Part shown: in pieces, positions 17,083 through 52,168 of the stretch
Layout of the letters: each line of letters opens with the position of its first letter
Position numbering within the stretch: position 1 is the first letter of the stretch
Assembly (NCBI RefSeq): GCF_003670115.1
Contig: NZ_QQTY01000001.1
Coordinates: 744,001 to 808,000 of the forward strand
Reading direction: 5' to 3'
From: Natronorubrum halophilum
Lineage (GTDB): Archaea; Halobacteriota; Halobacteria; Halobacteriales; Natrialbaceae
DNA: 64,000 nt
Position numbers and translations under genes: made by a program
The notes under the pieces: model-generated
The model's input: only the letters and a program-made list of their open reading frames with translations
Databases searched by the model: none
What the model was told of the DNA's origin: nothing

Positions 17083-17585
17083 TGCCGCTGTATATGCACA
17101 AATTTTGAGATAGAGTGGCTGAGGACTGGGAGCTACACCCCTCGGTGCCGCTGTATAGTCTCGATTTAACCCCGGAGTTCCGCTGTATAGACGGATCGGA
17201 CCCCCGAATGCCGCTGTATAGCGAGAGTCGCGTTCGGACCGCCTGCGGACTGACGGGCGCACGGTTTGCCGTCGAACGCGATGATTTGCGGTCGGACGTA
17301 ACCGGCTTTCAGTTTCGGTCGAACCGAAGAGTCCCCCTCCGGGGTTTCGCCCGGCAATACGATCGAGGTGAACGACGCGGAATTCCGTTGCGCCTCGAGC
17401 GAAGTACCCCCGAGTGCCGCTGTATAGTCCCGTTCCCTGGGAGGGAACCGGACGTGCTCCCGCCTCGATAATACCGTAGTTCCGCTGTATGGATTCAAAA
17501 GGGTTTCTATAGGGGGTAAGTCGACCGTTTTACACCCCTCGGTGCCGCTGTATGTGGGGACACAGACCCCGTGTTGCCGCTGTAA
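17083..17585 (+). repeat. direct array of origin recognition box-like repeats
   Basis: Eight same-orientation copies share the core CCGCTGTATA/G and usually an upstream ACCCC separated by 5-8 bases. The fullest copies are at 17134-17158, 17169-17190, 17200-17221, 17406-17427 and 17531-17554; weaker ones are at 17083-17094, 17473-17491 and 17566-17585. The copy at 17531-17554 is identical over 23 bp to the inverted distal copy at 18006-18028. These are probable binding sites of the adjacent initiator. Confidence 0.85.
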
Positions 17586-17971: not shown

Positions 17972-18005
17972 TCGAATTCTCGGGCAACGGACGCTCTTTC
18001 AGCCC

Positions 18006-18028
18006 CATACAGCGGCACCGAGGGGTGT
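18006..18028 (-). repeat. inverted distal origin repeat
   Basis: This 23-bp copy is the exact reverse complement of the repeat at 17532-17554. It closes the intergenic region on the hisH side, giving the inverted arrangement typical of archaeal origins in which recognition boxes flank an unwinding region. Confidence 0.85.
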
Positions 18029-18041
18029 CTCTCCACTGCGG

Positions 18042-24236: not shown

Positions 24237-24563
24237 ATGGATCCGACCGCCCTCGTTCGGCGATACTACGACGCGCTCGACGAGCACGACTACGAGACGC
24301 TCGAGGGTCTGCTCGCCCCCGACTTCGTCCAACGCCGACCCGATCGGACGCTCGAGAGTCGCGAGGCGTTCGTCCGCTTCATGCGCGACGACCGGCCGAA
24401 CCCGGACACGAGCCACGAACTCGAGGGAGTCCTCGCCGACGGCGACCGAGTCGCGGCCCGCGGCCGGGTGCTCGACGGCGAGACGGAACTGTTCGCCTTC
24501 GCGGACTTCTTCGACCTCGAGGACGGTCGGATCGAGCGACTCGAGACCTATAGTAGCCACTGA
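24237..24563 (+). CDS. SnoaL/NTF2-like protein
   Basis: This 108-residue protein has the NTF2-like cone fold pattern: MDPTALVRRYYDALDEHDYETLEGLLAPDFVQ, then alternating strands ending in FADFFDLEDGRIERLETY. Such proteins include ketosteroid isomerase-like enzymes and hydrolases, but no catalytic residue set is clear. The last four codons and the stop (TATAGTAGCCACTGA, 24549-24563) are the terminal repeat of a MITE-like element, so the natural C-terminus may have been replaced. Confidence 0.8.
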   Translation: MDPTALVRRYYDALDEHDYETLEGLLAPDFVQRRPDRTLESREAFVRFMRDDRPNPDTSHELEGVLADGDRVAARGRVLDGETELFAFADFFDLEDGRIERLETYSSH

Positions 24564-24672
24564 CAGTCAATGCACACCTGATCGCACGAGAGCAGCACGG
24601 TTCGGAGCGAACGGAGTGGGCGAGAACCGCGGCTGTGCAATGGGTGTGTAAATCGTTTCAATTGTTACTATA
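24549..24672. mobile_element. MITE-like palindromic element, copy 1
   Basis: This 124-bp element has imperfect terminal inverted repeats of about 39 bp, from TATAGTAGCCACTGACAG at the left to TTCAATTGTTACTATA at the right. Inside are GCACACCTGATCGCACGA and GGGTGTGTAAATCG. A loop of about 40 bp containing CGGTTCGGAGCGAACGGAGT (a common haloarchaeal repeat) separates the arms. A shorter copy is at 36951-37034 and a related right half at about 51470-51506. It has no ORF and could be a non-autonomous transposon or a structured termination element. Confidence 0.65.
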
Positions 24673-24728
24673 CTCGCGGTAGGTCGGTGCTTCGCAACTG
24701 AGTCCCGCCACAAAAGAGGGCATAGTAG

Positions 24729-36950: not shown

Positions 36951-37034
36951 TAGAGTAGCCACTGACAGTCACTGCACACCTGATCGCACGATAGCTGTGC
37001 GATGGGTGTGTAAATCGGTTCAGTCGTTCCTATA
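36951..37034. mobile_element. MITE-like palindromic element, copy 2
   Basis: This 84-bp copy shares both arms with the element at 24549-24672: TAGAGTAGCCACTGACAGTC at the left, GCACACCTGATCGCACGA inside, then GTGCGATGGGTGTGTAAATC and TATA at the right. It lacks the 40-bp loop of copy 1. It sits between the divergent minD and aRF1 genes, upstream of both starts, so it does not serve as a gene end here. Confidence 0.65.
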
Positions 37035-37111: not shown

Positions 37112-38371
37112 ATGAGCCAGGAGGGCGGGCAGGAGCAATCCGACCGGAAAAAATACGAGTTCCGGAAGGTAATCGAGGATCTCAAGGATTTCGACGGCTC
37201 CGGGACGCAGCTCGTAACGATCTACGTTCCGGACGACCGTCAGATCAGTGACGTCGTTCAACACGTTACCCAAGAACACAGTGAAGCGGCCAACATCAAG
37301 TCCAAACAGACCCGGACGGCCGTTCAGGACGCACTGACGAGTATCAAGGACCGACTCCGATACTACGACACTTATCCGCCGGAGAACGGACTCGTGTTGT
37401 TCTCCGGTGCGGTCGACTCCAGCGGCGGGCGGACCGAGATGGTAACCCGAGTGCTCGAGAGTCCGCCCCAACCCGTCGAGTCCTTCCGCTATCACTGCGA
37501 CTCGGATTTCCTCACCGAGCCGCTCGAGCACATGCTCGCGGACAAGGGCCTCTACGGCCTGATCGTCCTCGATCGGCGCGAAGCGAACGTCGGCTGGTTG
37601 AAAGGGAAACGCATCGAGCCGGTCAAGTCCGCGTCGTCGCTCGTCCCCGGGAAGCAACGAAAGGGTGGCCAGTCCGCCCAGCGGTTCGCCCGGCTGCGGC
37701 TCGAGGCGATCGACAACTTCTATCAGGAGGTCGCCGGGATGGCCAACGACCTGTTCGTCGCGAAACGCCACGAACTCGACGGGATCCTCGTCGGCGGTCC
37801 CTCGCCCACCAAAGACGAGTTCCTCGACGGCGACTACCTCCACCACGAGATACAGGACAACGTCATCGGAAAGTTCGACGTCGCCTACACCGACGAGTCC
37901 GGCCTGAAGGACCTCGTCGACAACGCCGAAGAGGCGCTGGCCGACGCCGAGGTGATGAAGGACAAAAAGCAGATGGAGGAGTTCTTCGAGGAACTCAACG
38001 CGGGCGACCTCGCGACCTACGGCTTCGAGCAGACCAGGCGGAACCTCATGATGGGGGCGGTCGACCGACTCCTGATCAGCGAAGACCTTCGCAAGGACGT
38101 CATCACCTACGACTGCGGCGAGTGTGGCAGTACCGAGCGCGAAGTCGTCGACCGGCGAAAGGCCACGCCCGTCCACACGTGTACTGACTGCGGCTCCGAA
38201 GTCGAGGCAACCGAGGAGGACCGCGAGGACGCGATCGACCACCTCATCGAGATCGCCGAACAGCGGGGCTCGGAAACGAAATTCATCTCGACCGACTTCG
38301 AGAAGGGCGAACAGCTCTACAACGCCTTCGGCGGCTTCGCGGGTATCCTGCGCTACAGTACCGGCGTCTAG
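37112..38371 (+). CDS. prf1: peptide chain release factor aRF1
   Basis: This 419-residue factor decodes stop codons and triggers peptide release. It has the stop-codon recognition motif NIKS (residues 61-64), the catalytic GGQ in GGQSAQRFARLR and a C-terminal zinc-binding segment (CGECG...CTDCG). The ATG at 37112 gives the usual N-terminus; an upstream in-frame extension of 17 residues is discounted. A weak TATA-like TTCTTACCC lies about 27 nt upstream. It is complete. Confidence 0.97.
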   Translation: MSQEGGQEQSDRKKYEFRKVIEDLKDFDGSGTQLVTIYVPDDRQISDVVQHVTQEHSEAANIKSKQTRTAVQDALTSIKDRLRYYDTYPPENGLVLFSGAVDSSGGRTEMVTRVLESPPQPVESFRYHCDSDFLTEPLEHMLADKGLYGLIVLDRREANVGWLKGKRIEPVKSASSLVPGKQRKGGQSAQRFARLRLEAIDNFYQEVAGMANDLFVAKRHELDGILVGGPSPTKDEFLDGDYLHHEIQDNVIGKFDVAYTDESGLKDLVDNAEEALADAEVMKDKKQMEEFFEELNAGDLATYGFEQTRRNLMMGAVDRLLISEDLRKDVITYDCGECGSTEREVVDRRKATPVHTCTDCGSEVEATEEDREDAIDHLIEIAEQRGSETKFISTDFEKGEQLYNAFGGFAGILRYSTGV

Positions 38372-51183: not shown

Positions 51184-51354
51184 ACAGCGCGGGACGTAGC
51201 GGGAGGATAAAAAGTCACTTCTTTCGGCTAGTCGGCCGCCGGGTTACCGATTCGGCATCAAATCGTCGGTCCCGGCCGCGGGATTCTGGAATCTATAGAC
51301 GCGTACTCCCGTCTCGAAGAAGGGTGTGTGCCTGCTCGTTCCGGAGCTGTTTTC

Positions 51355-51506
51355 GAGCGCGGTTCGGAGCGAGCGCGGTTCGGAGCGAACGGAGTGAGCG
51401 AGAACCGCGGGGAAGCGAGCGGCGAGCCGTGCGAGCCGTGAGCCAACGGAGTGAGCGAGAATCGCGGACGATGCGATCGGTGTGTAACTCGTTTCAGTTG
51501 GTACTC
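51355..51506. mobile_element. MITE-like element, copy 3 (degenerate)
   Basis: The right side (51470-51506) matches the right arm of the elements at 24549 and 36951 (GGTGTGTAA and CGTTTCAGTTGGTAC). The interior (51355-51465) is an expanded series of CGGTTCGGAGCGAACGGAGT and AACGGAGTGAGCGAGAA units like the loop of copy 1. The left end is poorly defined. The right arm supplies the stop codon of the minus-strand gene ending at 51494. Confidence 0.5.
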
Positions 51507-52168
51507 GAGTCGTCACCGAAGGAGACCGCATCGGTGAAGAATTCGGTGATTCGATCGAGTATACCGCCGTTCTCGCTCCCTTCGTCGTCCTCGGTACCGG
51601 TGTCGTCGGAATTACCGTCCGCGGCAGTTTCGTCGCCGTCCGCATCGTCGCCACCACCGTCGTCGGCCCCGCTGTCATCGCTGTCTGGTGGCTCCTCGAC
51701 ATCGCCGTCGTCTTCGACATCGCTGTCGGCGTCACTGTCATCGGGTTCGTCCTCGTCGCTCGAGTCGTCCGTCCCCGAATCTACGTCCGTCGACTCCTCG
51801 TCTTCGCCTTCATCGTCTGTATCAGCAGAATCGGAGCCTTCACCCGTCGCGTCGTCCTCGCTTCCTTCTTCGTCCGCCCCGTCGTCGGCCGTGTCATCGC
51901 CGTCACCAGCGTCCGCCGAGTCGTTCGTCGCCTCGCTCACCTCCGAATCCACGCCGCTATCGGCCTCGTCGGAGTGTTCGTCGTCGGTCTCGTTGCCAGC
52001 ATCGACCGGATCCTCGTCGTCGCTCGTCGAATCCCCGATCGAAAATCCGGTTCCAACGACTGCGATCGTCGTACCGAACGCGACGAGGACGATCAGAACC
52101 GTCACGAGGACGACGCCGGTCGAAACACCGACCTGATCGTCGCCACTCCGCTCACCAGAGTTTTGCAT
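51494..52168 (-). CDS. membrane-anchored acidic low-complexity protein
   Basis: This 224-residue protein has one N-terminal transmembrane segment (residues about 16-43, GVVLVTVLIVLVAFGTTIAV) followed by about 150 residues dominated by Asp, Glu, Ser and Gly, then a short amphipathic end ILDRITEFFTDAVSFGD. It could be an extracellular or cytosolic polyacid tether. The last codons and stop lie in the terminal repeat of the adjacent element. No family is recognised. Confidence 0.65.
   Translation of the reverse strand: MQNSGERSGDDQVGVSTGVVLVTVLIVLVAFGTTIAVVGTGFSIGDSTSDDEDPVDAGNETDDEHSDEADSGVDSEVSEATNDSADAGDGDDTADDGADEEGSEDDATGEGSDSADTDDEGEDEESTDVDSGTDDSSDEDEPDDSDADSDVEDDGDVEEPPDSDDSGADDGGGDDADGDETAADGNSDDTGTEDDEGSENGGILDRITEFFTDAVSFGDDSSTN

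Follow-up and report, generated by a model that had tools for sequence, protein, structure and literature searches.

The analysed stretch of Natronorubrum halophilum DNA (64,000 nucleotides, hereafter the window) holds three copies of a short repeat, two of which overlap the 3′ ends of protein-coding genes (Table 1). One of these genes encodes a SnoaL-like protein (Pfam SnoaL_2, E 1.1e-21) and the other an acidic, probably membrane-anchored protein. As the preliminary description had noted, the SnoaL-like gene ends in the left arm of copy 1 and the acidic-protein gene inside the arm of copy 3, where its last codons are ACC AAC TGA, and both ends lie in the same arm context. The stop is at arm base 15 in each. 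Near copy 2, the 5′ end of a ParA-like ATPase gene is 109 bases off and the other neighbouring gene starts at 37112; placement between these genes may influence their promoters. The window also carries a repeat of 26-28 bases, ACACCCCTCGGTGCCGCTGTAT, three times within 910 bases (17129-17156, 17532-17557 and 18003-18034), one of them inverted.

Table 1. Genes, repeat copies and arm segments in the window (coordinates are window positions)
Feature	Position	Strand	Remarks
SnoaL-like gene	24237..24563	+	108 aa, ATG at 24237, ends ETYSSH-stop; codon-model gene call
Repeat (putative MITE) copy 1	24549..24672		124 bp with both TA included; arms at 24549-24578 (left) and 24643-24672 (right)
Arm bases 1-15 of copy 1	24549..24563	+	TAT AGT AGC CAC TGA = Y-S-S-H-stop
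Displaced native end CTCGCGGTAG	24673..24682	+	with preceding TA: TAC TCG CGG TAG, same as G004 orthologue
Repeat (putative MITE) copy 2	36951..37034		84 bp; between divergently oriented genes, not at a gene end
Repeat (putative MITE) copy 3	51354..51508	-	long form, distal arm lost
Acidic, probably membrane-anchored protein gene	51494..52168	-	224 aa; ends GDDSSTN-stop
Arm bases 1-15 of copy 3	51494..51508	-	TCG AGT ACC AAC TGA, read 51508 to 51494

The core of the repeat, 84 bp long, forms an imperfect palindrome whose two arms (TATAGTAGCCACTGAAAGTCAATGCACACC and TATAGTAACAACTGAAACGATTTACACACC) differ slightly. Longer forms, of 103-139 bp and 197-258 bp, contain extra GC-rich repeats in the middle of the element. 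At least one GCGGTTCGGAGCGAACGGAGTGAGCGAGAACCGC unit, in either orientation, was observed in the loop of long forms (24590-24632 and 51354-51470 in the window; loci L011, L015 and L051), and judged from these units a second repeat family seems to be nested inside the first. Near-identical 84-bp copies stand in tandem at two loci, L117 (863-1036) and L141 (948-1148), with spacings of 6 and 33 bases, respectively. At an arm threshold of 20/30 or more, 100 arms were counted in the genome to which the window belongs, of which 26 are single and the rest make up 37 pairs; the paired copies are 73-258 bp long and carry no transposase gene. The arm pattern gave 46 + 46 matches in this genome versus 0 + 3 for a reversed control pattern. 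Of 125 family genomes, 100 carry the element, and these represent 23 of 29 genera; it also occurs in 49 plasmid records, including those of Haloarcula and Halomicrobium. No copies were found in the phage records searched, and a pattern scan of viral contigs returned 26 candidate stretches (L255-L280).

Judged by its ends, the repeat is most plausibly a non-autonomous MITE belonging to the IS630-type (Tc1/mariner-like) elements. Parent elements were located by way of annotated plasmid records: plasmid pNMAG02 of Natrialba magadii contains ISNma7 (L284:14279-15419) and ISNamo16 (L285:9495-10635), both named by the NCBI annotation and annotated there as IS630-like. Both start with TATAGTAGCCACTGC and finish with an TATTGTAACAACTGC or TATAGTAACAACTGC arm, and since the same arms thus stand at their outer ends, the repeat can be assigned to the MITEs of the IS630 kind. 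The left arm agrees in 28/30 bases and the right arm in 20 and 22/30, with TA at the ends, whereas ISNma7 and ISNamo16 are 1141 bp long, possess a transposase gene and carry TGC at arm bases 13-15, where the repeat has TGA. The repeat itself is short, lacks a transposase gene, shares its terminal inverted repeats with these elements, uses a TA target and occurs in many dispersed copies, all of which are features of an IS630-type MITE; a TA target is typical of the IS630 group. TA stands on both sides after insertion at one site that could be read fully (copy 1), and further sites are consistent with this; the second TA could be a target duplication or belong to an element that carries one extra TA, and the data fit both. 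The IS630-type MITE RUP is likewise described as using a TA target, in line with the empty site of copy 1 (PMC2229807). The IS630-type transposase domain PF13358 had no match in the window's genome at E<=0.001, the same search being positive in three of 14 control genomes, which may leave the copies in the window's genome stranded; because a transposase in the same genome is needed for present mobility and not for descent, its absence does not exclude membership in this group of MITEs. Two other assignments were rejected. An IS5-type (DUF4096) MITE is not supported since PF13340 was found in none of the 125 family genomes, and identity with the SMR of Haloquadratum fails because SMR ends are unrelated to known transposons, whereas the ends described here match IS630-like elements.

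The preliminary description had suggested that insertion recut the C-termini of the two proteins, and had named a comparison with orthologues lacking the element as the refuting test. In that comparison the residues differ, and the suggestion is supported for both genes. All nine congeneric SnoaL orthologues, none of which has the element in the gene, end ETYSR-stop, versus ETYSSH-stop in the window. Among 27 named haloarchaeal orthologues (two of them from the same genomes as congeners), 15 end in ETYSR and none in SSH, and no arm scoring at least 21/30 was found in the region reaching from 50 nt upstream to 400 nt downstream of their SnoaL stop. The native end is still legible just past the element (Table 1): if the flanks of copy 1 are joined by one TA, a protein of 107 aa ending RLETYSR-stop is restored, the orthologues hold that TA once, and the empty-site stretch GAGACCTACTCGCGGTAG is found letter for letter in congener G004. 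From these comparisons, copy 1 evidently went into the TA of the antepenultimate sense codon, a Tyr codon, of the SnoaL-like gene; Tyr and Ser reappear because the arm happens to encode them, Ser-His takes the place of Arg, and the original Ser-Arg-stop is left stranded on the far side of the element. In congener G009 (L103), an arm-like stretch, TGTAGTAGCCACTGAAA, was seen approximately 45-50 bases past the SnoaL stop, which may represent an independent landing of the element near the same gene.

For the acidic protein, six congeners could be compared (G001 and G002 gave no match and G008 was left out). In two of them (G004 and G006) the protein terminates immediately after GDD and in four (G003, G005, G007 and G009) within two residues of GDD or GD, so that SSTN is missing from all six ends, which lie 0-2 residues past GDD/GD. 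The near arm of copy 3 is decayed (26/30) and its far arm is lost, which makes the displaced native stop unreadable; the simplest reading is that copy 3 entered at the stop codon and that a native GDD-stop became GDDSSTN-stop.

The same arrangement recurs at other genes. A gene stop codon lies inside 19 of the 100 arms of the window's genome, at base 15 in 14 cases, at base 3 in three, and at bases 5 and 8 in one each. Of 64 copies sampled independently from other family genomes, 15 hold a gene stop (base 15 in 11, base 5 in three and base 8 in one), with the orthologous pair L116/L173 counted twice both here and in the pooled counts that follow. Most of these gene ends come from a codon-usage gene caller and a few were checked against public annotation. 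On the annotated plasmid pNMAG02, which has mostly TGC-type arms, one annotated gene end each falls at base 15, 33, 67 and 1 among 38 arms, a check that covers 33 of 211 annotated features, picked by eye near arms, and 250,000 of 254,950 bases. When repeated flanks and copies near stretch ends were dropped, 340 arms remained in a pooled set; its 26 gene-ending TGA arms are entered in the first frame, with the stop at base 15 or 3, in 21 cases and in the third frame in five. At L370 of congener G007, a long coding frame enters a TGC-type arm in the second frame and stays open through the arm.

The resulting tails read YSSH or YSNN, some of them decayed, as in DSNN and YRSH. A relative of the IF-2B/ribose-1,5-bisphosphate (R15P) isomerase (C2:889264, L068) ends in DSNN after a Phe residue, right after which all nine congeners stop. 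TrpG of congener G008 ends LESV-YSNN, compared with LESV in the window's genome and LETV in G001; the remaining congeners carry other tails. For both genes, the orthologues place the native stop at the insertion point. The housekeeping gene gatB (L009, C2:576264) illustrates a different outcome: its arm now starts with TAG instead of TAT, so that GatB stops at once as ELES, without an element tail, and its congeners end ELEA, ELEG or ELE (read in nine of ten congener loci, L186 being left out). The TAT to TAG change was also seen at two more gene-end arms of the window's genome. For the gene at another gene-end copy (L011), an orthologue was found in none of the nine congeners. Bases on the far side are mutated at some copies (TCG, GCG), where the native stop is consequently inferred and not read.

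Position in the arm, reading frame, the empty site, the displaced native end, recurrence and the kinship of the ends with IS630-type elements are the evidence in hand, and we consider it very probable that an IS630-type MITE inserts at TA and re-ends genes with its own in-register stop. In the course of events that we propose, an IS630-type transposase would move the MITE in trans into a TA, which would then stand on both sides. Genes of haloarchaea offer few suitable TA sites except TAA or TAG stops and some Tyr codons, and hits inside genes would be lost, leaving the surviving copies between genes or at gene ends. Where the TA opens a stop codon, or a Tyr codon close to the gene end, translation would continue into the arm as TAT AGT (AGC CAC or AAC AAC) TGA; the protein would gain a YSSH or YSNN tail, later mutated, and stop at the TGA of the arm, and the old stop would be stranded past the element. 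A TA at positions 2-3 of the last sense codon would make the next arm codon TAG, and a TA split across codons would leave the arm open. Hits at stop codons presumably survive since they are harmless.

A further proposal is that TGA at codon 5 of the stop-codon-TA frame was itself selected, making stop codons safe landing sites, which we regard as possible but doubtful. Genes end in the first frame at 23/204 TGA arms versus 2/162 TGC arms of relatives (score >=20; Fisher P 9e-5), and third-frame ends, where both types stop at once, show no such difference (6/186 versus 4/141, P 1.0); 13 of the 340 pooled arms, with neither TGA nor TGC, were excluded from the comparison of types. At the lower score limit, the unstratified first-frame counts are 22/186 for TGA and 4/141 for TGC, and the unstratified P is 1e-4 when the pair L116/L173 is removed and one annotated N. 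magadii case is added. In addition, a TAT to TAG change at base 3, which restores the stop, was observed in 3/17 first-frame arms of the window's genome versus 2/81 others (P 0.035, in a comparison selected post hoc). However, the two arm types are uneven over genera, and the difference between them is not significant when stratified by genus (P 0.11; P 0.27 before an extra sample was added). TGC arms stop early too, after YSNNCN or YSSHCKSLHT, and TAA and TAG stops are scarcer at the sampled TGC loci (38% of 73 genes versus 53% of 70). Moreover, the TGA sits within the terminal repeat, where transposase binding alone could conserve it. As proof of adaptation the contrast between TGA and TGC arms was therefore rejected, being confounded with genus, and we treat it as a lead and not as a result. 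Equally tentative is the wider notion of a portable stop, according to which both arms would be kept as TAT AGT xxx xxx TGA in the stop-codon-TA frame, landings would be near-neutral, and a YSSH/YSNN tag would have been placed on many unrelated haloarchaeal proteins, including TrpG.

The preliminary description had left a choice between C-termini recut by insertion and an element that had evolved into a gene end and terminator. Only the first part stood up; an evolved role is not favoured because the TGA lies in the terminal repeat shared with IS630 elements and placement near 3′ and 5′ gene ends is about equal. An exapted role of the element as a transcription terminator at the ends of genes is improbable. 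Strong hairpins are predicted for a canonical copy (-38.4 kcal/mol, z -7.2), for copy 1 (-41.8, z -2.1) and for copy 2 (-32.5, z -3.1), but the element is palindromic and any palindrome folds in this way. Outside genes, gene starts are about as frequent neighbours as gene ends: TGA arms without overlap lie within 150 nt of gene 3′ versus 5′ ends in 14 versus 13 cases in the window's genome and in 27 versus 24 in the sample, and an Rfam search of the window at gathering scores returned no match to any known RNA family. A terminator role was thus set aside as being without support.

Still less likely is a transposase that targets stop codons as such. Stop codons account for 140/2452 (5.7%) of the non-coding TA sites in 366,009 bases from the window and the congeners, and the 9/37 paired copies located at stop codons exceed this share (P 2e-4); yet stop codons make up 19.7% (50/254) of non-coding YTAR sites and 16.1% (9/56) of CTAG sites, and 9/37 is not above either (P 0.30 and 0.13, respectively). 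The far side is TAG at 113/186 TGA arms, so that a CTAG-like base preference around the TA, together with the loss of hits inside genes, suffices to explain the number of copies at stop codons. Special aiming was rejected, as YTAR sites account for the excess at stop codons. Finally, that two unrelated genes end in AT-rich repeat arms by chance, the insertion having had no effect, has a negligible probability, since the position and frame are fixed in 14 genes of the window's genome and in 11/64 copies elsewhere, the native end is displaced beyond copy 1, the empty-site comparison refutes it for copy 1, and nothing was found in its favour.

Several small repeats resemble the insertional re-ending of genes by the haloarchaeal MITE in one respect or another. 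RUP of Streptococcus pneumoniae is a repeat of about 107 bp that has terminal repeats in common with an IS630 element and a TA target, but it is reported to bear stops in all six frames and to be intergenic, and the accessible parts of the sources describe no fixed in-register tail (PMC2229807, PMC3049150). In the same species, 36 annotated genes have their stop codon within a BOX repeat; BOX differs in being modular and in its proposed link to ISSpn2, and no strong evidence of truncated C-termini is given in the section of the report that treats it (PMC3049150). QMITE1 and QMITE2 of Coxiella burnetii are MITEs that extend over the 3′ ends of functional genes, which was taken as tolerance of the C-terminus, whereas their overlaps of 1 to 50 bp are, as far as the available account goes, without a fixed frame or tail (PMC5896051). 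Insertion of RU-1 in enterobacteria took out a native stop and lengthened ECA3499, here by a longer open frame that added about 35 residues (PMC2759123). The SMR of Haloquadratum walsbyi are haloarchaeal, approximately 80-110 bp long, with inverted terminal repeats and no transposase, but according to the portion of the source available they match no known transposon and leave no target duplication (PMC3119063). Repeats that supply stop codons are thus already known in bacteria; in the accounts available of BOX, QMITE, RU-1 and RUP, no fixed frame and tail is described, and the in-register stop of the haloarchaeal MITE is unusually regular. No published description of the haloarchaeal element or of its use as a stop codon was found in the open literature, of which our search had partial coverage.

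The haloarchaeal MITE is a clear example of a mobile element that repeatedly re-ends genes in a fixed frame, with the end from before the insertion legible alongside. It makes a general question testable, namely whether small elements evolve ends that turn stop codons into safe landing sites. For the annotation of haloarchaeal genomes, it means that C-termini reading YSSH, YSNN or decayed forms of these are often sequence of the element and not of the gene.
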